Positions 5,395 to 32,650 of a stretch of DNA of 40,700 nt are shown here, piece by piece. The stretch is taken from IMG/VR virus record IMGVR_UViG_3300040801_002330, positions 1 through 40,700 of that record; one strand, written 5' to 3'. Origin of the DNA: a virus. The stretch's first letter is position 1. Every line of letters starts with the position of its first letter. Made by a program: the position numbers and the translations under genes. The notes under the pieces are model-generated. The model was not told the origin of the DNA, ran no database searches, and saw only the letters and a program-made list of their open reading frames with translations.

Positions 5395-5885
5395 TGTCTT
5401 ACGTTCCTCTCCAAATCAAACTTCTATCCATCGCTGGCGTCGAAGAGTCCCTCCGCGCTATGCGAAACCCTCTCATGTCTCATGAGAAAGCCAGCCACGA
5501 AGCTGACCTCAAACTAGCAGCAAAGCTAATCAAGGCAGGCGACGAACATGCTAAAGCCATAAGAGGCATCGTCGCGTATGCTGAGCTAGACTTCCAAGTT
5601 GGCTGGATGATTGAGTGGGATACCTACCGCATCGGCGTTGAGGTATTATCCACATCCTCAGCCATGTACCTAGACCACAAAGGAACAAAAGGCCCGGCTT
5701 TGGCTGAGCTAAAACAAATCAACCTCCCTGACAAAATCTACCACCAAACAGCAATGATCTCCTACCAGGCATTGCGACGTATCCACATCCAGCGCAGGCA
5801 CCACAAGCATCCAGACTGGACCCTGTTTTGTGATTGGATACAAACCCTCCCCTACTTCACCACCCTCATCCGCCCGGAGTTCTAA
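5394..5885 (+). CDS. Phage protein of unknown function with AMRNP…DTYRIG pattern (163 aa)
   Basis: This 163-aa soluble protein has AMRNPLMSHEKAS near residue 21 and EWDTYRIGVEVLSTSSAMY around residues 75-95. This reminds me of a group of phage hypothetical proteins with AMRNPM and DTYRIG stretches; I cannot assign a reaction. Conserved His, Asp, Tyr and Arg residues suggest an enzyme or nucleic-acid binding rather than a structural role. It starts in a TGATG overlap with the preceding gene with only a weak Shine-Dalgarno, and its TAA overlaps the next ATG (TAATG). Confidence 0.7.
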   Translation: MSYVPLQIKLLSIAGVEESLRAMRNPLMSHEKASHEADLKLAAKLIKAGDEHAKAIRGIVAYAELDFQVGWMIEWDTYRIGVEVLSTSSAMYLDHKGTKGPALAELKQINLPDKIYHQTAMISYQALRRIHIQRRHHKHPDWTLFCDWIQTLPYFTTLIRPEF

Positions 5886-6268
5886 TGCCTTTGATATACA
5901 TAGCTGGACCTTACTCTCACCCGCAAGAGGAGGTCCGTTTCGTTCGTTACCAGCAGCATACCCAAGCTGCTGCCCTTCTCCTCCAACAGGGCTATCATCC
6001 TTATAGCCCAATTGCCCACTGGCACAATGCAGCGGTTATATACAACCTACCAACGAACGCTGACTTCTGGCACCAGCACAACCGCGCTGTCCTCGCCAAA
6101 TGCAGCTTCTGCGTTGCCCTTCAACTACCTGGCTGGGAGGATTCTATCGGACTAAGATACGAGACAGAGTTCGCAAACCAATGCGGGATTCCTGTGGTCT
6201 ATTCCTCTTTACAGGATCTCGAATCCTTCAACGAGGTTCTACCTTACTACGAAGGTCAAGAGCTATGA
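5885..6268 (+). CDS. DUF1937-like protein (possible nucleoside 2-deoxyribosyltransferase fold)
   Basis: This 127-aa protein begins PLIYIAGPYSHP and continues with YSPIAHWH, then LPGWEDSIGLRYETEFA and GIPVVY. This order matches DUF1937 proteins, which resemble nucleoside 2-deoxyribosyltransferases: a Rossmann-like fold with an early Gly-Pro-Tyr loop and a late Glu-containing helix. Activity on deoxynucleosides or another N-glycosidic substrate is possible but not shown. I chose ATG 5885 (CGGAG upstream, TAATG overlap) over an upstream in-frame start at 5834, which would overlap the preceding gene by 52 nt. It sits among nucleotide-pool candidates. Confidence 0.75.
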   Translation: MPLIYIAGPYSHPQEEVRFVRYQQHTQAAALLLQQGYHPYSPIAHWHNAAVIYNLPTNADFWHQHNRAVLAKCSFCVALQLPGWEDSIGLRYETEFANQCGIPVVYSSLQDLESFNEVLPYYEGQEL

Positions 6269-6714
6269 GCAGCTTTCTTTCACAGCCAATCCAAGAGAAC
6301 AGAGAACTTGACGGAGAGATTGAGATGGAAGATAATGAACCTGTAGAGCAGCAGCGCCCCGGCTATCTATCCCCGCACTTCCGCGAAGCCGAATTTGCCT
6401 GCAACCACTGCGGCGCGCTGCCCGAAGCCGGCATCGACCCTGAGCTGGTCGAGATCCTAGAGCGAGTCCGGGTTTGCTTCGATGCCCCTGTCGTCGTCAA
6501 CAGCGGCTACCGCTGCCCACAGCACAACCGCAATGTCGGAGGCGCCCGTCGCAGTCAGCATCTCCAGGGCACCGCCGCTGACATCCGGGTTGTAGGCTTC
6601 TCTCCAAGTGAGATCTACGACTACCTGAAAAAGATTCGTGGGGGCAAAGGAGGTCTTGGCTTATACAAGACCTTCACCCACGTTGACACTGGCCCTGACG
6701 GCCGCAGATGGTAA
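6265..6714 (+). CDS. M15-family zinc D-Ala-type carboxypeptidase/endopeptidase, probable endolysin
   Basis: This 149-aa protein has a short acidic N-terminal tail (residues 1-33), then an M15_3-type domain. Zinc ligands are visible in SQHLQGTAAD (His99, Asp106) and THVDTG (His139, with Asp141). VNSGYRCPQHN, just before, is typical of the family. Enzymes of this type cut peptidoglycan stem peptides; in phages they serve as endolysins or virion lysins. There is no signal peptide or membrane segment, so it would need a holin, which I could not find here. The start forms an ATGA overlap with the preceding stop. It lies with replication genes rather than beside the virion genes. Confidence 0.88.
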   Translation: MSSFLSQPIQENRELDGEIEMEDNEPVEQQRPGYLSPHFREAEFACNHCGALPEAGIDPELVEILERVRVCFDAPVVVNSGYRCPQHNRNVGGARRSQHLQGTAADIRVVGFSPSEIYDYLKKIRGGKGGLGLYKTFTHVDTGPDGRRW

Positions 6715-7362: not shown

Positions 7363-10300
7363 CTATTTACCCACTCTTACCTCATACGACCGATTAAACT
7401 GTTCTTTCAACCTATCAATCCTGCCCCTTAAAACCTCCATTGTCCGCTCATCCCCTCTCCCCTCAGCCCGCTTAACCTTCTTCCGAATTTCCTTAATCTG
7501 CCGCTCGACATCTTGGGCGTACCTATAAATCCGCAGATCCCCCGCCCTCTCCCTTCTCACCTCCATGAGCTTAACCATATCCCGCTCCGGCCCCTCCTTA
7601 TACAGCTTCTCCAGCTTGGCCGCACCATACGCCGCCGCCACTCTCGTATGATACTTCTCCGACCGCATCGGGTTACTTGGGTCAGCGAACAGCCCACCAA
7701 CCAGCGGCAGATCCTTTGGCCCTTCAAGCTCCAGTTCCCCCTGAGCAGCACCCTTAATCCCCAGCGTCGTATCAGTAAGGAACCTGCCTAAAGAACCTGT
7801 CAGGAAATTAACCAGCACCTTGTAATCCGCTGGCCTCAGATCCACTATCCCCGACTCAACAGGGCTTCCACCTGTTGCCTCGTTCACATACTCCGCCAGC
7901 CACTTGTACCCCTCTGGCGTGCTGCCCCAGGCCAGCTCAGCATTCGGCCTCTTCCCTACTCCAGGGTAAGCCTCCGGCGCCAGCGGATTCCCAGCGAAGT
8001 CCTTGTTCTCTAGGATCTGCACAAACGGGTCCATCGCTGTGGGCGATATAGCCTGAGCCAAGCTTGCACTCCCAACAGGGTTAAACGTCGTCATCGTCAT
8101 CGCGCTGAGATCCAACAACATATCCTGCGGCTTCCGCACTCCGGCCAGCGTTTCCCCGAGCATTCCTCCCATCCGCCAGACCACGTTATACACCCACGGC
8201 GCTGGTATCTTAACAAAGTCTCCGCCCACCTTAACCGGCGCTATAATAAACCTCTCTTTATCCCACTCAGGAATCTCATCCCAATCATCAAACATCATCC
8301 TGCCCATGACATCCAGCATCAGGCTAAACCCAATAGTCCCTGCCGTAATCCCCTGCAGCTTTTTACTCCCCAGCAGGTTTCGCACCACTTGATAGTTACC
8401 CTGTACCGTGGCATTAAAGAACAGCCACCATACCCCCAGCGCCTGAGTCTTATACCCCCTCCTCGTAAAGTTGGTTGTAAGGTCTTGTGAGATACGCGCT
8501 GCGCGCTGCTCCGAAACCCCCTTATCAACCAGCACTGAGAAGGTACTCAACCTCATGACATTCTCAAACAGAATGTTCGTGTTCTCAATGCCATCCAGCC
8601 ACTTGTCCTTCATCTCAAACAGCGCCTTAGCCCCTCCTTGCCTCCGAGCAACCTGCGCTTCAAAGCTCCCCCACGAGTCGTCCATCTCCTTCAGCGACTC
8701 AATAAACGAAGTCCGGCCTCCAGCCTTCTCCCACCTTTCCACCATCTGCACATCAGCATCTGCTGGATCTCTAACCCCCTGCACAAACACTTTCTTCAGC
8801 GCCGTAAACGTCTTTCCATAGTTCGCAAATATCTCACTCGTATACTCCTTAGCTTCACTAGCCTGCATGTTATACGCCGCAGTGAACGGATCACGAACAG
8901 CGTTCATCATCAGGAACGCTGGGCTGGCGCTGACATTCACCCATCTGACTATTCCATTCAGCCAGTTCATAACCCGCATCGGCCCGTTCAGCACCTGGGC
9001 GTCCAGGTTATTCACAGCCCTCACAAACCCAAGCGCTCTTTCATTGTGAGCATTGGGCCGAATAATCAGCTTCTTCCCTCCCCGTAACAGAACAATATCC
9101 GACTTGTTCTGCGCCGTGGATTTCTTCTCAACCAGAAAACCATTCTCATCATGAGTCGCATACTTGTCCTTATCCACCACAGCGAACCAAGACTTCCACC
9201 CTTCTCTATCCTGGTTGATAGTCTCGTACAGGTAGTTATTCGCAAAGTTCCTTTCCGCCGCCGCCGCCGCCGCCTCTGCTTTAGCCAGCGCATTCTGCAG
9301 CGCCATCACTGGCTCACTCAGCGTCTCAGTACCTGCCCGAGTAGCAAGCTGCTTCGCGCCACCCGCCCCAGCTTGCTGGAATATCTTTTGAATCTCGTCA
9401 TTCAAATTATACGCCTCTCTCCTTAATGGCGCGTAGGCTGTCTTATCCCCAATCAGCCTAGCCTTCTCATCCTCCGTAATCAGCCCTCCATCTTCCAATA
9501 TATCCAGCGTCATCCTATTCAACGAGTCATACAGGTTCGTGATCTCATCCCACTTTCCCTGATCCGCTGAGACCCTATCCAGCACCTGATCAACCCCCCG
9601 CACAAACGCTGAGCCTACCCCACCATCTGAGAACCCAGAAGCCGCATCCTTAAACACCTCCCAGTCATTCCTTAGAAGCTGCTCGCCCCCTTGCTTAATC
9701 TCATATGGGATGTAATAATTAACCAGGTCAAACATCAGCTTCCGCTTAGTCGAAGCTGACATCGTAATCTGGTTCCCCTGCGCATCCACATAATCCGACC
9801 CATCAGGGTTCTTACCAACCCTCACAAATCCCCTGGCCTTACTCAGCTCCTTAGCCCTAACCTCCGGCAGCACATCTTTCTTCAGCAGCCTTTTCGCATA
9901 CATATCCGATGCACGCTCAGCCAGCTTCCGATTAACCCCATCAACTTTAATATGCCGCGCTGCCAGCATATCGCTGACTTCTTCCGCTGTCCAAGGCGAG
10001 TCAGCAATCTTACTCCTCAGCGGCAGTGCATACTCTTGCTTAATCTGCTCCAACCTTGCTGCCTTCTTATTCCTCACCAGGGAATAAACATCATACACCC
10101 CTGTATCAACCGCTTCCATCTCAGCGAAGTAGTCAATAAAGTCAGCCCGGATTCGTTGCAACAGCCCTGGCTTATTAACCTGGTCCTCCCTCCCATCCGT
10201 CGGGTCTGTCCACAGGTACCCCTTTACTTCTTCCCAGGCCTGAGACTGATACTCGTTCCCATCAAACGCCGCATCCAGCGCCCGGCCTACGCGCCCCGCA

Positions 10301-13300
10301 GCGGACATATAAGCCGCCTCCCTATTAACAGCCATTGACTGTTGGGCTTGGCCCCGCGCCATGTTCAACGCGCCATGCAACCCGCGCTGCGCCCATATCA
10401 CAGCCATCCCTTCTGTCAGCTCAAACCCAATGCCCCGTTCCTTGAGCATTTGCCCCAGCGCTGTACTAGCCCACCAGGCTTTGATTTTATCAACAAGCCT
10501 CCTAAACAGCCCGTTGCCCTGGCCCTCAGCGCCATACTGCACAAAATAAGCCAGATCCTCTTCCGCCAGCAGCCCCGGACTTTTTTGTTCAACCTCCCTT
10601 CTAACCCTATCCAGCTCCCCCCTGCCTGCCCACTCTTCCCGCAGGTAGTGTTCGACTCCTAAAGAGTCCGCTGCTGACAAAGTAGCCTGAGTCATCGCCC
10701 GCCGAGCCAGCTCATTCCCAGCCTCCGCCATTGTATGCAGATCCCCTACATACTGCCCCAAGGAATCCCCCAGGACCTCCTTAAACGTCGCATGTTTCCC
10801 CTCATGCAACAGCACCCCTGCAGGCCCGCCGCTAGCAGGCATACTCCCAGCATACAGCCGAATCCGCTGGCCATCCCAGGAACCCGATTCCCCATTCGGG
10901 CCTGGCTCATTGATAATCTCAACCAGCCCCGCGGCTTCCGCCTGCTCCACCCAGCCTTGCCCCATCTCCTTATCCAGCTGCTGTACCAAATCCTCCCTTT
11001 CCATAGCCATAGTCCTCCCCTCCTTGGAGTAATACTTCTGATCCCCGGTCTTAGGGTCAACGACATAATCCGAAACCCCAGGATGCTCCGGGTACGGCAG
11101 CCCCACCCCATTCACATCATACGCAGCATTCTTCTTCGGGTTCCCTGCAACCTTCTGTCCCTTCTTATAGACAACAGTCAGCCTATCCAGATCCTCTTGT
11201 CGCCAGAACACCCAGTTATAGAACCCGAACCCAGGGTGCTTAACAGTCTCCCCAATCTGCTGCTGCGCTGCCTTCTCGGCAATGTGCTTCCCAGCCTCCT
11301 TCTCCAGCCCCGCTTGGTCAACCGTGGAAACCTTCGTAGAGTGCCCAATTCCCTTCCGCACCTCATACGTCCCATCAGTGTTCTTCCTAACATACACAAC
11401 CCGAGACCCTGCATCCAGCAGCCTAATCCCCGCCAGCCCATATTCAGCCAACTTTCGACTAGCCATCCGCCGCGCCAGGTTCTTTTTCCGCTGCTGCTTC
11501 CCTGTCTCAGGATCATGGATATGCCCGTCCATCCCTCCATATTCCTTGTCCATATAATACTTTGTCAGCTCTGAATAAAACGACGAGCCGGTTCCTTTTA
11601 TATCTAAAGAGGGAGATGTAGGGTATGTTGAGGTTTTATTCTTAGCCTTCAGCGCCAACCTTAGTAACAAATAATCATCCCTTGGATCAAGCAGCGCTCT
11701 TTGAACCTGTGGGCTCTGCTGGTTAAGAGGCCGGTCCCACTCAATCATCTTCGGCACTATATCATCAGGAACGTGCATCCCATAAGTATTCGACCCGACT
11801 CCCTGCTTGTAATAATCCAGCGTTGCCTGAGACTCTAGCGCATAGAAGCCCCAGCCATAACTAATGTTCCCCTCACCCTGTCCTTTGAGCACATATTTTA
11901 ACAAGGGTCTGCCATGCGGAAACTTATTCTCCGATGCCCACTGCGCCCCTGACGTATGAGCAATGTAGGTATTAAACAGCCCATCACTTGTTGCATTCAC
12001 CTGATTCCTCAGCCCCTGCCTCACAAGCGCAACAGCCATCTCATCCGTAAACTCAAACCCAAACCCCTTTTGTTTTAAGCTCCTCCCCAGCGCCGTGCTG
12101 GCCCACCACGCCTTGACAGCATTCACAATCCGTCTAAACAATCCTTCATCCTTCCCCTGAGCAAACTGCACATAGTTAGCCAAGTCCTCTTCCATAAGAA
12201 AGTCAGGGCTAATCTTTCTCAGCTCTTCCCTAACTCGATTTATCTCGCTTGTGTTCTCCGGGCTCAGCGCACTCGCTATACCAAACCTCAGCGCACCTTC
12301 CCACGCCGTCTTGAACCTGGCATCCGCCGCGCTGCCCCCTTGTTTTAAGAAGTCCTCATGGTACTTAACCGCAGACTTCCCAAGAACACTAACCAGCCTA
12401 GCATGACTTCCCTCATGCAGCACCGCCCCTAGCAACTCCCTCGGGCTGCTAACATAATCCAGGTAAACCTTAATGGTATCCGTCGCTGCATCGTACTGTC
12501 CAGCAACTCCATCTGGCCCGCCGCCCTCAACCAGCTCCAGCATTCCACTACTCAACAAGGCATCCGTAATCGGACCCAGATCCTCCCTCAACAGCTCCGT
12601 CGCTGTACTCAAATCAAGAGCATCCCCTAGCTCCCCCTTAGTCTGATACAGCGTCTTGCCAGTGAACCCAACATTTTCTCCTCCCCCAGCAATAACATTC
12701 TCCCCCTTCCACACAACAATCTGCCGCCCTGTAACAGCATCGTGGACCTTATTAAAAAAGACTCCATCATACCCATCGGCTTTTGCTTGCTGGAGAATAT
12801 GGGTAAAGCTGGTGCTTCCATATCCTACCTCATTAGGAATTACCTTGAGGTTCTCAAAAGCAACCAGCACATTCACCTGCCTCGCCCTGGCCCACTTCTT
12901 CGCTGCCTTCCTTGTCGAAGCCAGGAACATACCCTCCTTCGTATCAGCTCCACCAACACCTGACCCGAAGAACTGAGGATCAATTACATCGCCCAGCAGC
13001 GCCTCCCTATCCTTAGACCCATGCCACAGCGACAGCACAATCTTCCCGCCTGTTTGCTGCAGCTTGTTCTGAATTGAAGACAGCGTAGCGCCGCCGCTCA
13101 TGATACCAGAGACCGTCCCAGTTTCCCCAACCCGGCTCTTTACCCAAGCATTCAGCGCTGCATTCCGCTTCTTAAACTCCTGCTTGTACGCCATATCCTT
13201 CATCAGCTTACTAGCGTTCGGAAGCCGCCGCGCAACATACAGCGCCGAAGACAGCTTGATCTTCTGTGTCTCCGTCATGTCCTCAACTTTAGGCTTGTTC

Positions 13301-16300
13301 TCCACAGCCTTGAACACAGCGGGGAAATCTGTAGCCAAATCCCCGTCCCTATACGCCTGCATAGCCTTGGGATTTCCTCTATACCCCAGGTCACTCTTCT
13401 GCATGTTCGAGTCAAACACAGCTTCCAGCGTGCGGGCTATGCGGGCAATCCTGGGCCGATGATACCCATCCCGCTTCATAGACTGACTTGGCCCCAGCGT
13501 TGGCTGAGTAGTCACAAGCCTTCTTGCCTCAGGCAGGCTAGCCCACTGAGTAGCATCTGTCTCCTGATGCGGCCCGCTCAGGTGATCTGTTGATTGCTCC
13601 CCTGTGGGAACCCCAACATAATACAACGAGGCCATCGTCCCATCGCGGCCTGAGTAGAACCCCTTGGCGAGCTGCCCAACAATCTGAACATCATACCCGA
13701 ATTCCTCCTTAGCCTCCCTCTTTGCCGCAACCAGCGGATGCTCCATGTACCTCTTGCTTGGAGTATGATGCCCTGTATCAATCCGATTCGGCCCTGGATC
13801 TGAGAACCTGTCCGCGCCGCCTCTGGCAAAGTCCCAGGTAATCCCCTCATACTGATTACTAACCTTCCTTAACAGCACCTTACCTGTCTTGGGGTTAATA
13901 ATGACAACCCCATACCTCGCCCCAGTTTCCCCGTAAGTCGCTGAGCTAGGGTTGTGATCTGAGTTAACAGGATAATTGGCCCAGACACCCTCAAACGGAT
14001 TCTCCGCCAGCAAATCCTCCTCTGGCCTTAGATCCTCCAGCCACCCGTCCAGGTTCGGGACATCAACAACCTTCTTTGGCGCTGACTTCAGTGCATCCTT
14101 TAATGCCTCATCCCCAAACTTATCCGCAAACAGCCCTGCTTCCTGCATGACATCCTCCAACCCATACTTATCGTGGTTGGATACAATCTCATGCAGCAGC
14201 TTCGTACCCTGGGTTACATCATTAGTCTCCCCAATCGTAACCTTTCTTAACAAATAAGGATGATTGACCTTAAACGATTCCAGCTCCTGCTTACTTTTCG
14301 GCATCTCCTTATAGAGCTGGATCTTCTCTATGGTAGGAATCTTTGCATACTTGAAATAGTTATGGATATGAGCAATCGCTGTTGCATCCTCATTGCTCAG
14401 GAATGAGGTAAAATAAACGTGCATCCCATCCATGGAGGTTATTTTACTAGACTCAATCGTATACCCTGGTGGGGGCTCCTGCGGTGCCCACTCAGTATTC
14501 GCCGCCGCTGCCGCGCTGGCTGTGCTAGCTGTTGCCCCAGCTCCCGTCCCAGCTCCAGCATTATCATACGCTGCTATAGCTTCGTCTATGGAGCCGAAGG
14601 AGAGCTGATACGGAGCAAAAGGAGACCCGCCTAACTGCCCTGAGCCAAACAACTCAGCGACACCTGTCTTGGGGCTGTATAGTATTGCAGCAGAAGGAGA
14701 GTCTGTCTTGAAGATAACCTTATACGGTGAACTTGATTTATCAATCCCCTTATATTCCCATCCAAGATGCACCAGCTCATCCAGCATCCCCGCTGTATCT
14801 GCCACAGTCTTGGGTGAGAATCCCTCATTTACCATGCTCTCAATCCCCTCCTTGTTAATTCCTGAAAGAGTCCCTGTATGCAGCGCGCCGGCTACCCAGC
14901 CCTCATCATAGTTCTCCCACTTCTCGACAGGCACCTTACCCAGCGCCTTAACGTAGGTCTTAGCCTCCGCTGGGTTATCTACAAGAAAAGACGCTGCCTC
15001 CGACCCCCACTTAGCCGCCAGGGCATTCTCCCCATACAGCTCCTTATCCGCTTTAATCTCCTTCATCTTGTTCTTAACATCAGGAACCGCAGAAAGGACA
15101 TTAAACAAACTCTGTACTTCCTCCTCCCCTGTGAACTCAGTAACCTCCGAGAAGCCCAACAGCGTCGTTGGCATTATAGCGGAGTTGTCCTCGGGGGAGT
15201 AATTAACCTTGGTCGCATTCCCAACATGCGTTCCCTGAATGGTCATTTTAAGCGTCGCCCCACCAGGCATCCCCTGCTTAATTTCCCAAGCATCAATGCT
15301 TCCGGCTTCTTGCAGCTTCGACGCAATATCGTAAACAAAATCTGGGTTAGCGCCGTTGTTAAGCAGATCCAACGTCTGCTTACCCCAGCTTTCAGCAAAC
15401 TCCGCTTCCTTCTGCGGGTCCGTAATCGCCATCGCCCACTCACCCTCAAGCATACCTCCCTCTTGAGTTTGAGCTTTCAACCCAGGGAAGTTCCCTGACT
15501 CCACCATCGCAACACCAGCATTCAGCGTGTCTGCGTAATTCGGAGCTTTGTTGGGAGTAAACACAGTCCAAGCATGTTGAACTAAATTGTCAATATCATC
15601 CACGTTCTGTGCTACGATACTCCCATCCTTCATATACATCGGCAAGCCGACAGTATTGAACTCTAAGTCCCACCCTTTATCATGCAGCTCTTTATTATAC
15701 TCCGGCAGCTCCAGCTTACCCGCTACCTCCATCTTCGTAACCGCAGCACTCCCTGATTCCTCAATCTGATTCTCCGCAACCAGATCCTTTATCACCGTCG
15801 CCGCTGTCCCGTTTCCGTAGAAGCCGTCGTAAGCCCCAACCTGCTCTTTGAGAAAAACAGGATCTCCTTTAGCAAAAGCATTGAGCAGCGACTTAGTGTT
15901 GTTGAGCTTATCCGACGCATCCCAGCTAACATCAGCATTTCCCTCCCACCCTTCATCCAGCTTTTGCTTCGCCGTATCACTCAGCCCATCTAGGTCTGTT
16001 GTCTCTTTAATAGGAGCCTTAGGCGCCGGCTCAATCCCAGCTTCCTTAATCGGATTCGTAGCCTCGTACTGCGACGCTGGATTCTCCATCCCAAGCCCAG
16101 CATCCGTGTCTAAGAACCCCTTGTCCTGGGCATAACCCTCCGCCATTTTTTCCTTAATATGACTCTTCGCCGTATACCCTGTCTCCTTAACCACCTCCCC
16201 GACAGCAACATCCTTCGGACTTTTCCCTGTCTCCTGGGTAAACCGTATTTCATCCTCCAGCGTCATATCTTGGATAATACTATCCAGCGACTTATCCTGA

Positions 16301-18045
16301 CTCGAGGACTCCCCTCGGGATAAAGTAACCTCTTCCACAATCCCTTTTTGCTTACCCCATTCCCTTAACAAAGACTCCTCTGTCTTAGGCCCAGCGGATC
16401 TCTCCTGCTCAGCCGCTGCAGCCGCCCACAAATCCTCTACTTGCTGAGTCATCTCCTCATCGTAAGCCTGCTCCTCCTGGGTCGGAGGTGGGGCTGGAGG
16501 GAGTTCTAAGGAGTCCGTAGGCGCAGGCGCAGGTTTCCCCTTAGCCTTAGCCTCCGCCGCTACCTTGGCCTTGGCCTCCGCCATCGCATCCGCCTTAGCC
16601 TCATTAGCGGCTTCGGGGTCAAGCTCAGCTTTCTCACGCAGCTCCGCAAGCCGCTCTTCCTCAAACTTCCTTTTAACCTCCCTATTCTCCATATCCTTAA
16701 TATGCTGTCTAGGGGTATAAGACGGCTCTTCTTCTTGCTCAGTATCTTGTCGGGAATCCGTATCCTGCTGACTCTCAGGAACCCGCTGGACAGTATCCTG
16801 TACAAAGCTTCGGGCCTCATACCCAGCATCCGGCCCTGCTTCCCTCAGCCCAGCCTCAGTATCCCCCAAGCCTCTGCCCTCAACAACCCCCTCCGCTGCC
16901 TTAATCCGTTCCTCGTGCGCAGCCTGTTCCTTCTTAGCCTGAGCCTCTTCCCTCGCAACCGCTTCCTCCTGTCGCTCCTGTGGAGACTTAACCATAGTCT
17001 CCCCGAGCCCTTTGACAGAACCTGTGGCTGAGCCCATACCGCCGCCAACAAGCCCACCAACAGCCATCGCATTCCAGAACGCACTCTTCTCCTCAGCGCT
17101 CAGCGGCGCAAGCAGCTTTTCATCCTTGGTGATCCTAGCCGCTGCCATGGTAACAAGTTCCTGCGTCGCCTCAGTGAGGCCTTCCTGCGCTGCCTGCGAA
17201 CCCGTCCCATATAACGCCTCTTTAGCAATATGCGCTGCCTTCTTTTTCAGCGTAGCATCGCTGCGAATCGCCGCACCCAGCGCCTCCCGGCCAAATCCCG
17301 CCTTAACTCTATTCAGCGCACTAAGAACAGGTACATATTCTAAAGAAGCATTGATAACACCCACTGCCAAGCTGGGCAAAACCGCCTTCTCAGGTGCAAC
17401 CCCCTCACTAACGAGCGAACCATAGCTCCCACCGCCCTCTTTCGCCGCCATTGGCACTGTGCTACCGAGGGTTTGCCCAACCTTCCCTGCTGTCGCAACC
17501 TTCTTAGCCCCAGCCTCTGCTGCCTTTCGCTTCAACTGATCTGTCGCTGCCCCTTTAACAGCCTTCTTAACCCCTTGCCGCGCTGCCGTCTTAGCCACAG
17601 CGCCGCCGATGCCGCCTCCAGCCACCATCGTAGCGACATCCAGTAACCCCTTCGTCCCGTGGTACGAGGCCCAGTCCGTAAACCTGTCGAACCCACCTTT
17701 CTCCCCAAACTTAATGTCCTCAATCTTTTCCACATCCGCTGTCAAGTCCCTTTGAGGGATCAGCGCCATCTGATCCTCGTAAACACCCATGCCCCAGTCT
17801 GCGGCTTTGTCCAAATATGGGTCAACTACATCTGGAGTGACCCCTTTGAGCGCCTCAGCCCCAAGCGCAACGGCGCCGCCGCCCAGCGCCTTGGTTTCCA
17901 GCCCAAAAGCCTTGGCTGCTTTCTTATACTCAGGTTCTTCATAAGCAAAATCATTAAGAACAGTCCGGTCAGGCAGCTCTAATTGCTGGGGCGAGGCGAT
18001 CTTGGGCAATTTGGGGAGAGGAAATGTATTCACATCGTTCACCAT
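7363..18045 (-). CDS. Giant polyvalent virion protein (Nudix, two ADP-ribosyltransferase-like regions, two zincins, LPD38-like C-terminus)
   Basis: This 3560-aa protein is probably packaged and ejected with the DNA. Regions in order: Gly/Ala-rich hydrophobic stretches near residues 140 and 330; a charged Ala/Glu/Lys region (350-620); mixed alpha/beta repeats (about 650-1330); a Nudix-like segment with Glu1435, Arg1443, Glu1444, Glu1447-1448 and Gly1450; an ART-like region from LWHGSK (His1675) to GYDGVFF near 1757; zincin 1 HEGSH (1877-1881); a second ART-like region from GEGNISYGWGFY (about 2060) to YNWVF (about 2280); zincin 2 HEGKH (2414-2418); and, from about 3030, a segment with ASPAFLMMNAVRDP resembling LPD38 of phage polyvalent proteins, ending in a coiled coil. 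The start ATG lies inside palindrome copy 3 and has no Shine-Dalgarno. I saw no N4 virion RNA polymerase motifs. Substrates are unknown; modification of host proteins early in infection is an inference. Confidence 0.88.
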   Translation of the reverse strand: MVNDVNTFPLPKLPKIASPQQLELPDRTVLNDFAYEEPEYKKAAKAFGLETKALGGGAVALGAEALKGVTPDVVDPYLDKAADWGMGVYEDQMALIPQRDLTADVEKIEDIKFGEKGGFDRFTDWASYHGTKGLLDVATMVAGGGIGGAVAKTAARQGVKKAVKGAATDQLKRKAAEAGAKKVATAGKVGQTLGSTVPMAAKEGGGSYGSLVSEGVAPEKAVLPSLAVGVINASLEYVPVLSALNRVKAGFGREALGAAIRSDATLKKKAAHIAKEALYGTGSQAAQEGLTEATQELVTMAAARITKDEKLLAPLSAEEKSAFWNAMAVGGLVGGGMGSATGSVKGLGETMVKSPQERQEEAVAREEAQAKKEQAAHEERIKAAEGVVEGRGLGDTEAGLREAGPDAGYEARSFVQDTVQRVPESQQDTDSRQDTEQEEEPSYTPRQHIKDMENREVKRKFEEERLAELREKAELDPEAANEAKADAMAEAKAKVAAEAKAKGKPAPAPTDSLELPPAPPPTQEEQAYDEEMTQQVEDLWAAAAAEQERSAGPKTEESLLREWGKQKGIVEEVTLSRGESSSQDKSLDSIIQDMTLEDEIRFTQETGKSPKDVAVGEVVKETGYTAKSHIKEKMAEGYAQDKGFLDTDAGLGMENPASQYEATNPIKEAGIEPAPKAPIKETTDLDGLSDTAKQKLDEGWEGNADVSWDASDKLNNTKSLLNAFAKGDPVFLKEQVGAYDGFYGNGTAATVIKDLVAENQIEESGSAAVTKMEVAGKLELPEYNKELHDKGWDLEFNTVGLPMYMKDGSIVAQNVDDIDNLVQHAWTVFTPNKAPNYADTLNAGVAMVESGNFPGLKAQTQEGGMLEGEWAMAITDPQKEAEFAESWGKQTLDLLNNGANPDFVYDIASKLQEAGSIDAWEIKQGMPGGATLKMTIQGTHVGNATKVNYSPEDNSAIMPTTLLGFSEVTEFTGEEEVQSLFNVLSAVPDVKNKMKEIKADKELYGENALAAKWGSEAASFLVDNPAEAKTYVKALGKVPVEKWENYDEGWVAGALHTGTLSGINKEGIESMVNEGFSPKTVADTAGMLDELVHLGWEYKGIDKSSSPYKVIFKTDSPSAAILYSPKTGVAELFGSGQLGGSPFAPYQLSFGSIDEAIAAYDNAGAGTGAGATASTASAAAAANTEWAPQEPPPGYTIESSKITSMDGMHVYFTSFLSNEDATAIAHIHNYFKYAKIPTIEKIQLYKEMPKSKQELESFKVNHPYLLRKVTIGETNDVTQGTKLLHEIVSNHDKYGLEDVMQEAGLFADKFGDEALKDALKSAPKKVVDVPNLDGWLEDLRPEEDLLAENPFEGVWANYPVNSDHNPSSATYGETGARYGVVIINPKTGKVLLRKVSNQYEGITWDFARGGADRFSDPGPNRIDTGHHTPSKRYMEHPLVAAKREAKEEFGYDVQIVGQLAKGFYSGRDGTMASLYYVGVPTGEQSTDHLSGPHQETDATQWASLPEARRLVTTQPTLGPSQSMKRDGYHRPRIARIARTLEAVFDSNMQKSDLGYRGNPKAMQAYRDGDLATDFPAVFKAVENKPKVEDMTETQKIKLSSALYVARRLPNASKLMKDMAYKQEFKKRNAALNAWVKSRVGETGTVSGIMSGGATLSSIQNKLQQTGGKIVLSLWHGSKDREALLGDVIDPQFFGSGVGGADTKEGMFLASTRKAAKKWARARQVNVLVAFENLKVIPNEVGYGSTSFTHILQQAKADGYDGVFFNKVHDAVTGRQIVVWKGENVIAGGGENVGFTGKTLYQTKGELGDALDLSTATELLREDLGPITDALLSSGMLELVEGGGPDGVAGQYDAATDTIKVYLDYVSSPRELLGAVLHEGSHARLVSVLGKSAVKYHEDFLKQGGSAADARFKTAWEGALRFGIASALSPENTSEINRVREELRKISPDFLMEEDLANYVQFAQGKDEGLFRRIVNAVKAWWASTALGRSLKQKGFGFEFTDEMAVALVRQGLRNQVNATSDGLFNTYIAHTSGAQWASENKFPHGRPLLKYVLKGQGEGNISYGWGFYALESQATLDYYKQGVGSNTYGMHVPDDIVPKMIEWDRPLNQQSPQVQRALLDPRDDYLLLRLALKAKNKTSTYPTSPSLDIKGTGSSFYSELTKYYMDKEYGGMDGHIHDPETGKQQRKKNLARRMASRKLAEYGLAGIRLLDAGSRVVYVRKNTDGTYEVRKGIGHSTKVSTVDQAGLEKEAGKHIAEKAAQQQIGETVKHPGFGFYNWVFWRQEDLDRLTVVYKKGQKVAGNPKKNAAYDVNGVGLPYPEHPGVSDYVVDPKTGDQKYYSKEGRTMAMEREDLVQQLDKEMGQGWVEQAEAAGLVEIINEPGPNGESGSWDGQRIRLYAGSMPASGGPAGVLLHEGKHATFKEVLGDSLGQYVGDLHTMAEAGNELARRAMTQATLSAADSLGVEHYLREEWAGRGELDRVRREVEQKSPGLLAEEDLAYFVQYGAEGQGNGLFRRLVDKIKAWWASTALGQMLKERGIGFELTEGMAVIWAQRGLHGALNMARGQAQQSMAVNREAAYMSAAGRVGRALDAAFDGNEYQSQAWEEVKGYLWTDPTDGREDQVNKPGLLQRIRADFIDYFAEMEAVDTGVYDVYSLVRNKKAARLEQIKQEYALPLRSKIADSPWTAEEVSDMLAARHIKVDGVNRKLAERASDMYAKRLLKKDVLPEVRAKELSKARGFVRVGKNPDGSDYVDAQGNQITMSASTKRKLMFDLVNYYIPYEIKQGGEQLLRNDWEVFKDAASGFSDGGVGSAFVRGVDQVLDRVSADQGKWDEITNLYDSLNRMTLDILEDGGLITEDEKARLIGDKTAYAPLRREAYNLNDEIQKIFQQAGAGGAKQLATRAGTETLSEPVMALQNALAKAEAAAAAAERNFANNYLYETINQDREGWKSWFAVVDKDKYATHDENGFLVEKKSTAQNKSDIVLLRGGKKLIIRPNAHNERALGFVRAVNNLDAQVLNGPMRVMNWLNGIVRWVNVSASPAFLMMNAVRDPFTAAYNMQASEAKEYTSEIFANYGKTFTALKKVFVQGVRDPADADVQMVERWEKAGGRTSFIESLKEMDDSWGSFEAQVARRQGGAKALFEMKDKWLDGIENTNILFENVMRLSTFSVLVDKGVSEQRAARISQDLTTNFTRRGYKTQALGVWWLFFNATVQGNYQVVRNLLGSKKLQGITAGTIGFSLMLDVMGRMMFDDWDEIPEWDKERFIIAPVKVGGDFVKIPAPWVYNVVWRMGGMLGETLAGVRKPQDMLLDLSAMTMTTFNPVGSASLAQAISPTAMDPFVQILENKDFAGNPLAPEAYPGVGKRPNAELAWGSTPEGYKWLAEYVNEATGGSPVESGIVDLRPADYKVLVNFLTGSLGRFLTDTTLGIKGAAQGELELEGPKDLPLVGGLFADPSNPMRSEKYHTRVAAAYGAAKLEKLYKEGPERDMVKLMEVRRERAGDLRIYRYAQDVERQIKEIRKKVKRAEGRGDERTMEVLRGRIDRLKEQFNRSYEVRVGK
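10360..10827 (-). repeat. Internal duplication in the giant gene, copy B (zincin 2 module)
   Basis: Residues about 2407-2562 carry HEGKH, then AEEDLAYFVQY, GLFRRLVDKIKAWWASTALG (about 2505-2530) and GIGFELTEGMAV. The same order occurs about 540 residues earlier in copy A. The match is clear at protein level and partial at DNA level, so the duplication is old. Confidence 0.85.
11998..12438 (-). repeat. Internal duplication in the giant gene, copy A (zincin 1 module)
   Basis: Residues about 1870-2016 carry HEGSH, then MEEDLANYVQF, GLFRRIVNAVKAWWASTALG and GFGFEFTDEMAV, matching copy B. One ART-like region lies before copy A and the second lies between the copies, suggesting that an ART-plus-zincin unit was duplicated and then diverged. 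Confidence 0.85.
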
Positions 18046-18061
18046 GCACGTTGTACTTACA
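18025..18061 (-). promoter_or_regulatory. Palindromic element, copy 3 (over the giant gene start)
   Basis: The gene-side half (TGTAT 18025-18029, ACATCGTTCA 18032-18041) is perfect. The far arm is TGCACGTTGT, with two mismatches against the consensus. The giant gene ATG (18045-18043) lies in the centre of the element and the stop of the preceding 58-aa gene (18059-18057) lies in its far end. No Shine-Dalgarno precedes the ATG. Confidence 0.8.
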
Positions 18062-18233
18062 GCCGCTTCGCTTGAGGCTTCTTAGTTGTCAGACTAGCCA
18101 ACCCTTTCGCGTTAGCTGAGGTGTTAATCGCCTCTTCCAGCATCCTTCCATCTCCTCCTGTGGGAAGTTTCGTCCTAGCCTGCAGCTTATTCGCCTGATC
18201 CATGACCTTTTTTAATAGATCATCAGGTTTCAC
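18057..18233 (-). CDS. Small protein (58 aa) just upstream of the giant gene
   Basis: This frame starts with GTG at 18233, overlapping the stop of the preceding gene, with a strong GGAGGAGG just upstream. It ends with TAA at 18057-18059, inside palindrome copy 3. The product is helical and basic (VKPDDLLKKVMDQ at the start, KKPQAKRL at the end) with a central TGGDGR. I do not recognise it. The strong Shine-Dalgarno, tight overlap and exact fill of the gap argue that it is real; a small internal virion or scaffold-like role beside the ejection proteins is possible. Confidence 0.72.
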   Translation of the reverse strand: MKPDDLLKKVMDQANKLQARTKLPTGGDGRMLEEAINTSANAKGLASLTTKKPQAKRL

Positions 18234-19873
18234 TGCCCTCCTCCGTACTGTGCGTCAAACGCCTCAAGAATAGTCTTCCCATTCAGCGGCTTGCCGTCAG
18301 GAGTCTTCCCATCTTTGATGAAATGGTTGAAGTGAGCCTGGGCATCCGCAGCATTCCCCGTCATCCTGTATAACCTGGAGTAAATTTGAGCATACGCCCC
18401 GTCCGGCGCATTCTTCAACGAGTCAAAGCTCCGTGCATACTCCTCATTCTTAAACCCAATCTCAGCAACCTTCTCTTGTTGCTCCAAAACCCGCTCCGGC
18501 TCCGTCGCTGCATACTCATCTAGCTCCTTCGCCGTTTGCATGGCATCTAACTCATACTCCTTTTGATCTTTGTTCCTATTGTACTCATCATTGTTCAGAT
18601 CCCTAGCAAACTTCGCCTGCTCCATCCCCTCGCTAGCAGCATTCGCCCGCTTCTGCTCCTGCGCCTTAGCCACCGCCAGCACCTCCGCCGGCGACGCACC
18701 CTGTTCCCCATGCTTCATTCCTTTTAAGGAGAGGAGAATCATCTTCGCCGCCTTGCTTCCGTTTCGGGCGCTTATATCCAGGTTTCTTAACATGGAATAT
18801 CCCTGCGACCCCACTCGGCCAGAGGCATAATCCACAATAGCCTCTTGCATTGTGATGGGTTTAGGAATAAACACCCCGCCTCCCCTCTCCGCCTGTTGAG
18901 CAGCAACCCCCGCCGCTGGCAGCGCCTCCCTCCGGGGCAGTGCCCCCCTCTCCTGCCCCTCCAGCTCTCCCCTACTTCTCATCAGACCATTAAGAACCCC
19001 CTGGTTCTCTTCCACCTTCTCCGGGCTAACATTAAATGCAGGACTCCCGTCAGTAAACCCCGTCGTGTTACCCTCAGCATCCGCAAGCCGCTTAACCCCC
19101 TGAGGCTGGGTAGAGTCTGTTGCTGCTGCTGCTGCTTCTTCCTCAGCAACCAACCTGTCTAGCTTTTGCTGCGGAGTCTCCCCTCCCGCTGTCCCCCCTC
19201 CTACTGGCTTCGACTGATCTTGCAACAACCCCGGCCTCCTATAATCCGTCGCCTTCGTCTCTTCCCCTGTTACTAGCTCAGTAACAAACCGCTCTACGGG
19301 ATCATATACTGCTGTGGCCGCTGAATTAACCATGTCTTTACTTTTTGCCGCAAACCCTGCTCCTACATCCCTGGCAAAATTAACAGCTTTCCCAACACCA
19401 TCCTCTCGAGGCTTCCTCCACAAGGCAGCTTGCCGAGCATTGTCCATATTAGACATCTTCCTTTTCTCTAGGGGCAGCGGCGTAGGCAGCCCTTTTGGCC
19501 CTTCCATTATATTCAGTGCCTCAGGCTTCTTCGGCGCCTCAAACATCTCCGTGCTTTGCTGGCTCTCCTCAGCCCTAGCATTTTCCATCCAGGTCGGCGT
19601 CTTAGGAATCTCCCTTATTTGCTGGGGAGGATTCGCAGCAGTTGTATCAAAAACATCTCTCGGAACAGCCGCAAACCCAGGCTTGCCAAGGTAATCCGCT
19701 GGGATCTGCTCATTAAGCAGCTTCGCCTGTTGCCCGCCGCTGGGCACAAGCGGAGTCCCTCTTTTACTAATTACATCATCCCCATAAACAGGAGGGGCTA
19801 CTGGATTGTTGCCCTTTGGAGTCTTCTTACCCTGCCCCAGCAGTTCTTCATCACCAACATATCCAGCAGCCAT
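18230..19873 (-). CDS. Probable internal virion / ejection-type protein (547 aa)
   Basis: This soluble protein has a low-complexity, Pro/Gly/Ala/Glu-rich first two thirds (including EEEAAAAA and GGGTAGGE) and a more regular helical C-terminal third with many charged residues (about 390-520). No enzyme motif is visible. Its place next to the giant polyvalent gene, its flexible composition and its size suggest an internal core or ejection protein, but this rests on context alone. I chose ATG 19873 (GAGG 7 nt upstream); a longer frame to 19945 would run through the preceding gene's end and begins with an unlikely Cys/Leu-rich stretch. Confidence 0.72.
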   Translation of the reverse strand: MAAGYVGDEELLGQGKKTPKGNNPVAPPVYGDDVISKRGTPLVPSGGQQAKLLNEQIPADYLGKPGFAAVPRDVFDTTAANPPQQIREIPKTPTWMENARAEESQQSTEMFEAPKKPEALNIMEGPKGLPTPLPLEKRKMSNMDNARQAALWRKPREDGVGKAVNFARDVGAGFAAKSKDMVNSAATAVYDPVERFVTELVTGEETKATDYRRPGLLQDQSKPVGGGTAGGETPQQKLDRLVAEEEAAAAATDSTQPQGVKRLADAEGNTTGFTDGSPAFNVSPEKVEENQGVLNGLMRSRGELEGQERGALPRREALPAAGVAAQQAERGGGVFIPKPITMQEAIVDYASGRVGSQGYSMLRNLDISARNGSKAAKMILLSLKGMKHGEQGASPAEVLAVAKAQEQKRANAASEGMEQAKFARDLNNDEYNRNKDQKEYELDAMQTAKELDEYAATEPERVLEQQEKVAEIGFKNEEYARSFDSLKNAPDGAYAQIYSRLYRMTGNAADAQAHFNHFIKDGKTPDGKPLNGKTILEAFDAQYGGGQ

Positions 19874-29068: not shown

Positions 29069-32000
29069 TCACCATTCACTATCATCATAACTATAATTAT
29101 GGTTTGTATTCTCGCTTGTAATATTCTGAGTACTGTGGGTTGTTGAGTAACTCGTAGACTCGCTTTCACTAATCTGCGTATTATCCGACGCGCTGTAACT
29201 AGCACTACCACTTAAATTGTAGCTCGCCGCACTCAACCAGGCCTGCAGCATGTTAGTGTAAAGCTGGGCTATGGAAAAAACGGCTTCCTGAGACACCCTT
29301 GCGATCTGCGCCTGAATATCCGCAACAACCTTAGTCTCCGCAACCTTAGCATCAAGCTCCAGCTTCTTAGGGGTAAAGACCCACTCTCTTCTTTCTGCCT
29401 CTTGAGCCAACTGCGTCTTCAACCTCTCAATATCAGCAACAAACCTTTCTGTTTCTGCTTGATACCTGCTAGCTGTGATCTTCGCCGCCACTTCGGCTTC
29501 GCTGATCTTCGCCCCTGTCTCCGCCCGATACCTCTCAACCTCAGCGCTCACATACGCCGAAAATGCTGTAGCCTGCGCCCGTTGAAACTCCCCCAGATAC
29601 CCTCTTTTCGACCTGGCATCCTCAACCTTAATCCCATATTGCTTTGCCAGCGAATCTACCTCAGCCGAGTACAAGTCAATGTTGATCTTATTCTCGGAAC
29701 TCCAGGTCTCCGCCGCCTGTTGCCGAGCCTTAACTGAGCTATCCCGCTGCGCCGCTGCCCCCCTTGTTTCAACATCAAACCGCTGGGTCGCTGCGTCTGT
29801 CTCAACCTTAAACCCTTCTTGCTCAGCGCCTACCTTAGCCTCCCAGACCTTTGTCAATAAATCCCTATACTTAACCTCACCATCAATCCCCGCAGCCTTC
29901 CCTTGGACCTCCGACCCATACTTGTCCATCACAGCCTTTGTCACAGCGCTGAACGTATCCGCCTCAACCTTCGCCCCGGTGGACCACGCCTCAAGAAGAA
30001 GCTTCCGCGTCCCCAGCTCCGTCTCATTCACCGAAGCCGACACAGCCCCATCAGCCCGATACTTCTCAACCAGCGCCGACACCCCTGCTTTATAGCTGTC
30101 AATTGACAGCCCCTCCTCCTTAGCCCACTTATCCACAAGAAGAGACTGGATTCTCGTTTCCGTCTCCAGCCTAGTCGCCTCATTCCGGCTCTTGTTCTCG
30201 AACTCTTTTATTAGAGTCTCCGAGATTGCTTTATATCTATCCAGATCAATCCCTCCTGCTTTCGCCCACGCATCCACTGCCATCTTCCGCTCTTCCACCC
30301 TAGCGCCAATTTCGGACGACTTAGCCTGGGTTTCTGTAGAGTATTGCTGGAGTAAAGCATCAGAGAGCGTCTTGAACGACTCGAACTTGATTGTTTCTTC
30401 CTTACTCCATGAGTCCACAAGCAGCTTCCGCAGCTCAACTTCCCCGCTAATCCTACTTGCCTCCGCCCGAACCCGCTCGGAGTAAATGGTTGATAGCGTC
30501 TGGGCTGTCTTGGAGTACCGCTCAACCTTCAGCCCCTCTTCCTTAGCCCACGCATCTAGGAGAATTTGCCGGAACGACAGCTCCGCCTCGAGCCGACTCT
30601 TCTCCGCTGTGACCTCCGCCTGATAGATACTAACAAGGGTCTCGGAAGCCGTCTTGAACGACTCAAGATTAACTTGCTGCTCCCTTGCCCAAGACTCGAA
30701 CACAAGCTGCTTGACCTGGGTCTCGGCTTGTAGCCTCTTAGCCTCACCCTCTGTCGTTGCCGAGAACAACCTGGCTTTGCCCTCGCTTTCTACCTGAAAA
30801 CCTTGGAGAGCAATAGAGTTCTCACGCTGCCAACTATCCATCAGCATCTTTCGTAACTCAATCTCCCCTGTGACTCTCTTACTTTCCGCGTCAATATCTG
30901 ATTGATATACGGAAGACAGAACCTGGGATAGGGTTTTATAGCTGTCCAGCGCTAGGGTACTTTGCTGCTGCCATGCTTGTAGCTGTAGCGTAACCACCCC
31001 GATTTCACTCTGAAGCCGCTTAGCCTCAGCATCGGACGCTGTGGAGAACTCTTTGAGAATCCCCTCTATTTTAGTAGAGTATGCTTGTAACGTGACGCTG
31101 GCCTTATCAGCCCATCCCTTTAACTTAACCGTCGCCTCTTCCCGCCATCTGTTTAACACAAGCTCTTCGTAGCGGAAGAAGTTATCCTGATTTAGCTTAA
31201 GAAGAAACTGCTTGTCCTCTCTTCTATCCTTCGCTTCCTGGGTCGCCTGAGCCAACGCAACCTCATTGAGAAGCTCCTGCTTAGTCTGCTGCGCCTTTCT
31301 TAACGCACTATTCAGTGCCGGCAGCGGCATCCCAAGACCAAGGGATGCTGACATATTAACAGCATCCCATTCCTGGGCCAGCGCCTGCTTCGTGATCTTT
31401 TGGGACTCTTTCTGATAAATTAAATCATACGTCGAGGCATCTAGGATCGACTCAGTAGGATATGTCTCTTTCGATGGCAGCGGATTTATATCTGCAACCA
31501 CTGGCGCTGTTCCCACATCAGGGCTGTCGGGCAACGTCGGCCTGCCTGGGAAGTTGGCTATTAGCTCAGCAATGGTAGGAGGATCAATAAAGGTCGGAGG
31601 CGTTGGAAGGGTCGGAGACTCCGGGAAGTTGAAACTTAGTTCTGCGAGTGTGGGGGTGTCCGTGATCCCTGGAGCATTCTCCATCGCCGGCGCTGTTGGG
31701 AAGTTGGAGGTAATCCCACCAACCTCTGGCGCGCTGACCAGCGTCGGAGCCTCGGGAAGAGTCGGCTTCGTAGGGAAGTCTGGAGTAACCTCCTCGAAAG
31801 AAGGCGCTGTAACGACTTCCGGCGCATCAGGAATGTTAGGATCGTCAGGGAATCCTGATACTACATCAGTAACCTCAGGTGCTTCCTCAAACCCAGGCTG
31901 AGTAGGCAGCGTCGGGACCGAGGGAAAGGATACGTTAACTGTCGTATCTGGGCTGTCAGGAAGACTCGGAGCCGTAGGAATACTGGGGTCAGCCGGGAAT

Positions 32001-32650
32001 GCTGGAGTAACATCCCCTACTGTGAGATCCCCTGGAGTCGGCGCTGTGGTTATGGTAATAGCCCCAGGAACCTGCGGGGTGTATGCAGTATTCGGCGCAG
32101 CATCCAGCGTCGGAACAGCTGGAGTCGGCGGCGGCGCCGGCATCCCTGTATCGACAGGGGCCAGCGTTAAATCCGCTGGCGTCGGCGCTGTTCCTACATC
32201 CCCGATAGTGGGAAACACGCCCTCGAGCGCAGGCAGGGTGCCGAGGGATGTAGGAGTGGGAGGCGTCGCTGTCCATTCTCCAGCTCCTAAGACATCCCCT
32301 ACTTCGCTGCTTAGACTTGAAATAGGATTACTAGGAATATCAGGGCCAGTGACCCCGTCAATGTCTGGGTGATGAGTACGGAAACTAGCATCAAAGTTCC
32401 CAGCCGCTGGCAGCTCTTCAGGCGGCGTGAAGTCTCCCAGCGCCTCAAAATCAATCTCAATCTTAGCCACTTCCTGCATCGCAGTAAGGGCTTCAATAAC
32501 AGCAGCCACTGCATCCCCAACACTCTCCCCTGCTGTCTCGCTGGCCTGCTCAGCCTTGCTGACAAAAGTCTCGAGCTGCACTCGAATGTCAGACATCGTA
32601 GTGTCAAGGTCTTGACGATCCTGCCCGTTATAGCCAGTAAGAATGCCCAT
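29069..32650 (-). CDS. Repetitive tail protein: proline repeats, then an 11-unit 47-residue helical rod (1193 aa)
   Basis: The N-terminus (1-60) contains an amphipathic helix (QVLETF-like region and DAVAAVIEAL). Residues 60-215 are Pro/Thr-rich. Residues 218-391 hold seven repeats of 24-25 residues beginning FPxxP. Residues 513-1029 hold eleven repeats of exactly 47 residues, each starting with Trp and rich in Glu, Lys and Ala (W-x-KEE…Y/F-K-x-x-S-E-T-L). The last 50 residues are Ser/Thr/Asn-rich. The gene has GGAG 8 nt upstream. A long fibrous rod or sheath around the tail is the likeliest role; N4-type phages have a large sheath/appendage protein in a similar setting, but I saw no sequence match. 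It follows the nozzle-like gene directly. Confidence 0.8.
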   Translation of the reverse strand: MGILTGYNGQDRQDLDTTMSDIRVQLETFVSKAEQASETAGESVGDAVAAVIEALTAMQEVAKIEIDFEALGDFTPPEELPAAGNFDASFRTHHPDIDGVTGPDIPSNPISSLSSEVGDVLGAGEWTATPPTPTSLGTLPALEGVFPTIGDVGTAPTPADLTLAPVDTGMPAPPPTPAVPTLDAAPNTAYTPQVPGAITITTAPTPGDLTVGDVTPAFPADPSIPTAPSLPDSPDTTVNVSFPSVPTLPTQPGFEEAPEVTDVVSGFPDDPNIPDAPEVVTAPSFEEVTPDFPTKPTLPEAPTLVSAPEVGGITSNFPTAPAMENAPGITDTPTLAELSFNFPESPTLPTPPTFIDPPTIAELIANFPGRPTLPDSPDVGTAPVVADINPLPSKETYPTESILDASTYDLIYQKESQKITKQALAQEWDAVNMSASLGLGMPLPALNSALRKAQQTKQELLNEVALAQATQEAKDRREDKQFLLKLNQDNFFRYEELVLNRWREEATVKLKGWADKASVTLQAYSTKIEGILKEFSTASDAEAKRLQSEIGVVTLQLQAWQQQSTLALDSYKTLSQVLSSVYQSDIDAESKRVTGEIELRKMLMDSWQRENSIALQGFQVESEGKARLFSATTEGEAKRLQAETQVKQLVFESWAREQQVNLESFKTASETLVSIYQAEVTAEKSRLEAELSFRQILLDAWAKEEGLKVERYSKTAQTLSTIYSERVRAEASRISGEVELRKLLVDSWSKEETIKFESFKTLSDALLQQYSTETQAKSSEIGARVEERKMAVDAWAKAGGIDLDRYKAISETLIKEFENKSRNEATRLETETRIQSLLVDKWAKEEGLSIDSYKAGVSALVEKYRADGAVSASVNETELGTRKLLLEAWSTGAKVEADTFSAVTKAVMDKYGSEVQGKAAGIDGEVKYRDLLTKVWEAKVGAEQEGFKVETDAATQRFDVETRGAAAQRDSSVKARQQAAETWSSENKINIDLYSAEVDSLAKQYGIKVEDARSKRGYLGEFQRAQATAFSAYVSAEVERYRAETGAKISEAEVAAKITASRYQAETERFVADIERLKTQLAQEAERREWVFTPKKLELDAKVAETKVVADIQAQIARVSQEAVFSIAQLYTNMLQAWLSAASYNLSGSASYSASDNTQISESESTSYSTTHSTQNITSENTNHNYSYDDSEW
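29564..31114 (-). repeat. Eleven exact 47-residue helical repeats (141-bp period)
   Basis: Units start at Trp513, 560, 607, 654, 701, 748, 795, 842, 889, 936 and 983; the next position (1030) is Phe. No insertion or deletion occurs over 517 residues. Unit sequences differ strongly, so the length rather than the sequence is held constant. Confidence 0.93.
31478..31999 (-). repeat. Seven proline-rich repeats of 24-25 residues
   Basis: Units begin at Phe218, 242, 267, 292, 317, 342 and 367. The first is 24 residues and the others are 25. The consensus is FPxxPTLPxAP, then a less fixed stretch ending near the next FP. The proline spacing suggests an extended or beta-solenoid-like shaft. Confidence 0.9.

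Follow-up and report, generated by a model that had tools for sequence, protein, structure and literature searches.

A cysteine-free giant polyvalent protein of a podovirus-like phage, a probable ejection protein with conserved ends around an exchangeable middle

Introduction

Polyvalent proteins of the LPD38 type, as described by Iyer et al. (2017, PMC5512222), combine unrelated domains, zincin and ART domains among them, in a single chain that ends in LPD38 and is encoded by a late virion gene, a build that the protein analysed here shares. Virion proteomics is available for one such giant, the 4,515-aa gp69 of JC1, which is 79% identical to its Bcep22 counterpart; it was identified in CsCl-purified virions by 51 unique peptides, with a score second only to that of the capsid protein, and gp68, its upstream neighbour, was found in virions as well (PMC9144972). 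The polymerase of N4 is an ejected protein whose N-terminal domain is described as binding lipid (PMC12633501). The lack of cysteine in N4-like polymerases has been published and explained by the need for the chain to cross both the tail and the oxidising periplasm (PMC3715699; PMC5795418).

Here, we analyse a 3560-residue protein encoded in a stretch of viral DNA of 40,700 nucleotides (the window; positions 1 to 40,700 of IMG/VR record IMGVR_UViG_3300040801_002330). The degree to which the polyvalent class is uniform in build has been little described so far and, to our knowledge, entry into cells ahead of gene expression has been demonstrated for few large phage effectors.

Results

Gene, record and neighbourhood

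A preliminary description, made from the letters of the window, had proposed one uninterrupted gene of 3560 codons that takes up more than a quarter of it. This holds in full: a single minus-strand frame stays open from an ATG at 18045 to a stop at 7363 and covers 10,683 of the 40,700 bases, or 26% of the record. The plus-strand reading of 7363-18045 is full of stops and was rejected. The features of the giant and of its upstream neighbour, all on the minus strand, are as follows.

7363..18045, minus strand: giant ORF, 3560 aa, without cysteine
17017..17940, minus strand: N-terminal module, residues 36-343, hydrophobic and Gly-Ala rich (profile search)
17593..17649, minus strand: hydrophobic segment, residues 133-151
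17314..17370, minus strand: hydrophobic segment, residues 226-244
14026..17013, minus strand: residues 345-1340, cargo plus linker, no homologue detected among the fetched relatives
13525..13914, minus strand: Nudix domain, residues 1378-1507, with the box ending in REAKEEFG at 1443 (Pfam NUDIX)
12661..13035, minus strand: ART-like region 1, residues 1671-1795, of the ART-PolyVal type (profile from relatives)
11986..12576, minus strand: zincin-like domain 1, residues 1824-2020, HEGSH at 1877 and EED at 1952 (profile and motif)
11380..11964, minus strand: ART-like region 2, residues 2028-2222, YGWGFY at 2063 (profile from relatives)
10354..10977, minus strand: zincin-like domain 2, residues 2357-2564, HEGKH at 2414 and EED at 2495 (profile and motif)
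7366..10335, minus strand: C-terminal module, residues 2571-3560, conserved in relatives at the very end of the chain
7705..8289, minus strand: LPD38 core, residues 3253-3447 (Pfam)
18230..19873, minus strand: upstream gene, 547 aa from the ATG at 19873, without cysteine, in the position of JC1 gp68

The giant ORF ends a minus-strand gene block that also holds a portal or head-tail adaptor gene (38560-40644) and the gene of the major head protein (36375-37457), and it thus stands among late virion genes, as polyvalent proteins do. A plus-strand block converges on it and carries DNA polymerase-type genes, others, and an M15 peptidase frame (6100-6714), which is a probable endolysin and whose true start probably lies downstream of the listed one; a DUF1937 or nucleoside deoxyribosyltransferase-like frame (5834-6268, plus strand) overlaps that listed start. 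The window probably represents only part of a genome, as its record is classed as 'linear' in IMG/VR, no terminase gene was identified in the 40,700 bases, and relatives of the giant sit on records of 54-63 kb; the giant's share of the whole genome is therefore likely below 26%. The closest three relatives found, L012-L014, come from records with converging polymerase genes as in the window. Near-identical DNA was not found among phage records, and exact peptide patterns retrieved no close relatives of the giant.

The 547-aa upstream protein is a probable partner virion or ejection protein. Among genes lying closely adjacent upstream of giants, 45 of 53 encode proteins without cysteine; compared with the proteins encoded upstream of the giants in relatives, the 547-aa protein showed no detected homology in most cases and a weak one to the L015 neighbour. 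Three further minus-strand frames may be recorded. By eye, a possible GTG-started frame of 58 aa (18057-18233) follows the upstream gene, whose stop it overlaps, and precedes the giant. Between portal and major head protein lies a frame (37462-38370) for 302 aa without cysteine, in a position that suggests a scaffold. The third (29069-32650) encodes 1193 aa, also without cysteine, in which a Pro-rich start is followed by a long body of helical, repeat-like character; this product may be a further virion protein of the internal or ejected kind.

A conserved C-terminal module

The end of the chain, previously called LPD38-like, scores far above the gathering cut-off of that Pfam family (PF18857, 115.7 bits against 27, E=3.6e-33). 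When the protein was compared with phage records by tblastn, only the C-terminal ~570 residues were widely matched, in phages of Vibrio, Burkholderia, Bacteroides, Synechococcus, Pelagibacter and Bacillus, in Stx-type E. coli phages and in Methanosarcina virus MetMV. In the giants from nine matched records and in that of ctsTn925, the shared part was C-terminal in every case, and each of the eight fetched giants that were scanned carried LPD38. A profile built from three C-terminal sequences and searched in IMG/VR and in GTDB genomes matched at least 368 IMG/VR loci, 80 of which were kept, and a further 51 loci in GTDB genomes; in the 127 ORFs that are not cut at their end, the match stops a median of 15 residues ahead of the stop codon. 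The recurring stretch amounts to the last ~950 residues of the chain. The module is predicted to be mostly helical (pLDDT 86, pTM 0.83), and its model matches other LPD38-type viral proteins in BFVD, with no credible match in the PDB by sequence or by fold.

A few LPD38 giants are associated with archaea, in contrast with the description of polyvalent proteins above 1000 aa as almost all bacterial. MetMV (L002) encodes one of 3002 aa, and the contigs of L102 and L103 (the latter 2957 aa) were binned as Methanoperedens and Nitrosotalea, respectively. The zincin regions of L102 and MetMV are nearly identical; the archaeal binning of L103 may be an error.

The N-terminal module and the N4 polymerase

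The hydrophobic N-terminal stretches noticed earlier are confirmed as the segments at residues 133-151 and 226-244, both within the N-terminal module. A profile grown from window residues 1-360 and tested on 72 complete giants detected this module in 49 of them; the shuffled and reversed sequences and the mid-protein segments used as controls all stayed below its threshold. The same profile matched residues 265-441 of N4 gp50 with E=1.9e-10, and neither 100 shuffles nor the reversed sequence gave a match in that test; with the window and its nearest relatives omitted from the profile, the match held at 3e-9. In the opposite direction, a single N4 query retrieved the giants L117, L039, L026 and that of BcepIL02 with E-values from 1.5e-10 (L117) to 1.4e-4. 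An N4-seeded profile found the N-terminal 700 residues of the window protein at 6.9e-5 and in the correct place, controls reaching 0.066 or worse; against the full-length protein the value was only 0.1. A stricter profile of seven members did not match N4 gp50, and a PDB-wide search with the module alignment returned no N4 chain. Distant homology to the N-terminus of the N4 virion RNA polymerase is likely, and we hold it short of settled because the N-terminal region is compositionally biased.

Enzyme-like domains of the middle

Between these ends, the preliminary description had read Nudix-like, ART-like and zincin motifs, and had made its case depend on profile searches not failing for all catalytic regions; these were run and returned matches. 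The Nudix domain exceeds its Pfam gathering cut-off (PF00293, 29.6 bits against 21.1, E=7.8e-07), which bears out that call. Of the Nudix box Gx5Ex7REUxEExGU, the part Ex7REAKEEFGY is retained and the first Gly is a Pro; a search of the region against the PDB gave no match.

For the ART and zincin regions, only relatives and not the window itself went into the profiles, and 200 block-shuffled copies of the window served as control. These profiles matched ART-like region 1 at E=1.2e-8, zincin 1 at 7.6e-30, ART-like region 2 at 1.6e-29 and zincin 2 at 1e-46, over residues 1671-1794, 1824-2020, 2042-2221 and 2358-2564, respectively, the best value in the shuffled copies being about 0.2. We read the four regions as real homologies, not chance motifs; the two pairs proposed earlier stand, and HExxH with its downstream Glu is intact in both zincins.

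ART-like region 1 stays below the cut-off of Pfam ART-PolyVal itself (PF18760, 17.5 bits, E=0.0075, cut-off 31.2), members of its family reaching up to 102.8 bits with that model, and region 2 alone matched no Pfam family. The first region keeps the active-site His and carries Phe at a position occupied by Tyr in many relatives; the second keeps the active-site Tyr, its His alignment being ambiguous. The idea that both lack the catalytic Asp was dropped, as this column varies within the family. An alignment of 32 zincin sequences that contains both window copies has only four invariant columns, namely the H, E and H of HExxH and the Glu further downstream. The predicted model of zincin 2 (pLDDT 82) has among its best PDB matches the anthrax lethal factor chain (Z 5.0), MATCAP (3.7), PprI (3.5) and ArdC (2.4), the zincin matches all being weak and mixed with unrelated folds. 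A comparison of the zincin profile with the PDB, in which the best row was the N4 polymerase at only E=0.029 and off its HExxH, was not used.

Residues 345-1340 had no homologue in any fetched relative, and no internal repeats were found in residues 601-1340. An NCBIfam scan of the giant gave no match; neither a T7-like RNA polymerase domain (Pfam and NCBIfam scans, E up to 1) nor DNA methylase and helicase domains as in P1 DarB (Pfam scan) were detected. With Nudix, ART-like, zincin-like and LPD38 domains, the chain joins at least two unrelated functional domains, a defining property of polyvalent proteins, and by its sequence it is a phage polyvalent protein.

Exchange of the middle among relatives

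L012, the nearest relative, shows 64% identity over 997 C-terminal residues and 33% over residues 38-319, and has a zincin in common with the window protein. It contains nothing matching window residues 345-1790, the Nudix region included, except for the general ART family; its middle holds instead three ART-PolyVal domains and LPD23. The shorter giants of L013 (1,948 aa) and L014 (2,151 aa) carry different cargo again. When 15 giants were scanned together, LPD38 occurred in all 15, ART-PolyVal in five, InPase in three and a strawberry-notch-type helicase in two, with ddrB-ParB, GNAT and several LPDs found once each; a zincin match was seen in about a third of the compared giants (49 proteins). 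The middle of these proteins is thus exchangeable cargo between conserved ends, and the window's order of unassigned region, Nudix, ART, zincin, ART and zincin was not found in any fetched relative.

Absence of cysteine

The giant has no cysteine in its 3,560 residues. Among relatives of at least 1,500 residues, 77 of 106 have none either, and the 106 giants together contain 104 cysteines in 313,521 residues (0.03%), against 1.0% and 1.3% in comparison ORFs of at least 500 and at least 150 aa from the IMG/VR loci. The depletion ran in the same direction in 62 of 62 paired comparisons, and no other amino acid is depleted beyond about half (His, 0.55). The most Cys-rich giants (0.15-0.36%) are mostly those of Bacteroidota hosts or their phages (L119, L125, L127, L128 and Bacteroides phage BKO1-TP3).

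Proven ejected podovirus proteins of N4 (gp50, gp51, gp52), T7 (gp15, gp16) and P22 (gp7, gp16, gp20) are free of cysteine, and T7 gp14 has one; DarB of the contractile-tailed phage P1 has nine in 2,255 residues. Capsid proteins can also be poor in cysteine (none in N4 gp56, one in P22 gp5), so that its absence supports ejection and does not alone prove it. Within the giant's own block, large proteins hold 19 cysteines in 1262 aa and 18 in 972 aa. As an observation in itself the absence is not new, given the published N4-like polymerases; a limited search of open papers found no report that extends it to LPD38 giants.

Discussion

Packaging, ejection and the alternatives

We put a probability of roughly 0.78 on the giant being packaged in the head of a short-tailed phage and ejected from there, with conserved ends around exchangeable cargo that refolds in the host. 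The strongest experimental anchor is the detection of JC1 gp69 in virions, which concerns a relative from a family that, as tested on the gp69 homologue BcepIL02 gp70, has the C- and N-terminal modules in common with the window protein, not the cargo. Ejection is very likely because homologues are proven virion components, the gene lies in the virion block, the N-terminal module is probably N4-like and cysteine is completely lacking. The earlier proposal of an ejected multi-enzyme effector thus stands in its domain calls, by profile, and gains support for ejection from these four lines; that the domains would be active enzymes in the host cell we only infer, and action ahead of phage gene expression is plausible.

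In the mechanism that we propose, the hydrophobic module at the N-terminus probably attaches to the host envelope or to a channel made by partner ejection proteins, as has been proposed for the N4 polymerase, and the C-terminal LPD38 module probably serves packaging, the ejection complex or both. The cargo (a stretch of ~1000 residues without assigned domains, followed by Nudix, ART, zincin, ART and zincin) would be threaded through the tail largely unfolded and free of cysteine, and would refold inside the host. Possible tasks there are, for the zincins, cleavage of the chain and, for the remaining domains, modification of host proteins or hydrolysis of a nucleotide.

Cutting could also come sooner, the giant being cleaved by its own zincins before or during packaging so that only fragments reach the virion or the host. 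Two intact zincin-like active sites would permit this, and processing by such domains is a published proposal for polyvalent proteins, P1 DdrB among them; the N4 polymerase, however, has such a domain too and is packaged uncut (PMC5512222), and the restriction of the zincin match to about a third of the compared giants speaks against a general need, which leaves self-cutting rather unlikely. Another reading takes the protein mainly for a translocation device like T7 gp16, serving as a channel and in DNA entry, with cargo domains that are decayed or marginal. It would account for conserved ends around a poorly conserved middle, for the Phe substitution in ART-like region 1 and for the long region without detectable homologue, but both zincins retain their triads, the Nudix box is mostly preserved and varied enzymatic cargo recurs at the same place in relatives, and we regard it as doubtful.

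A permanent part of the head or tail that is never ejected could likewise be Cys-poor, as the capsid proteins N4 gp56 and P22 gp5 are. Against this stand the Cys-rich large proteins of the same block and the probable N-terminal similarity to an ejected protein, and we consider a fixed structural role improbable; we know of no structural precedent for a multi-enzyme chain of 3560 aa. Least credible is a late protein kept in the producing cell, for instance against superinfection, and never packaged, given that the JC1 homologue was detected in virions, that the absence of cysteine is common to the giant and to proven ejected proteins, and that the gene closes the block of virion genes; we judge it very improbable.

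The part worth following, beyond the ejection protein proposed for this locus, is the set of class-wide regularities, namely two conserved ends, an exchanged middle, the absence of cysteine and a possible N-terminal module in common with N4. We would give even odds to the broader proposition that short-tailed phages use one delivery chassis, composed of an N-terminal envelope module that LPD38 giants share with the N4 virion RNA polymerase, of a C-terminal module that is conserved, and of swappable Cys-free cargo, and that the absence of cysteine together with these ends identifies ejected effectors. If so, such effectors could be listed from sequence, and work aimed at bringing large proteins into laboratory bacteria by phage would find a natural template in the chassis.

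Comparison with known systems

In the earlier description of LPD38 polyvalent proteins, Nudix is mentioned once, beside InPase domains (PMC5512222). The 'DarB-like' giants of Bcep22, BcepIL02 and JC1 (4,515-4,667 aa) resemble the window protein in their C-terminal module, LPD38, N-terminal module and a gene of ~500 aa just upstream, and BcepIL02 gp70 also lacks cysteine; their cargo consists of transglycosylase, methylase and helicase, whereas the window protein has none of the three. In the Stx-type podophages of E. coli, the large proteins (PHROG 616) share C-terminal homology over ~570 aa at ~26% identity.

N4 gp50 (3,500 aa) is alike in size, in the absence of cysteine, in a probably and distantly similar N-terminal module, in a zincin-like HExxH region and in a three-part build of membrane-binding N-terminus, enzyme and large C-terminus. 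It differs in its RNA polymerase domain, which is absent from the window protein, and shows no significant match to the C-terminal module. The giant of this podovirus-like phage is, thus, ordinary as to its class and uncommon in its set of cargo.
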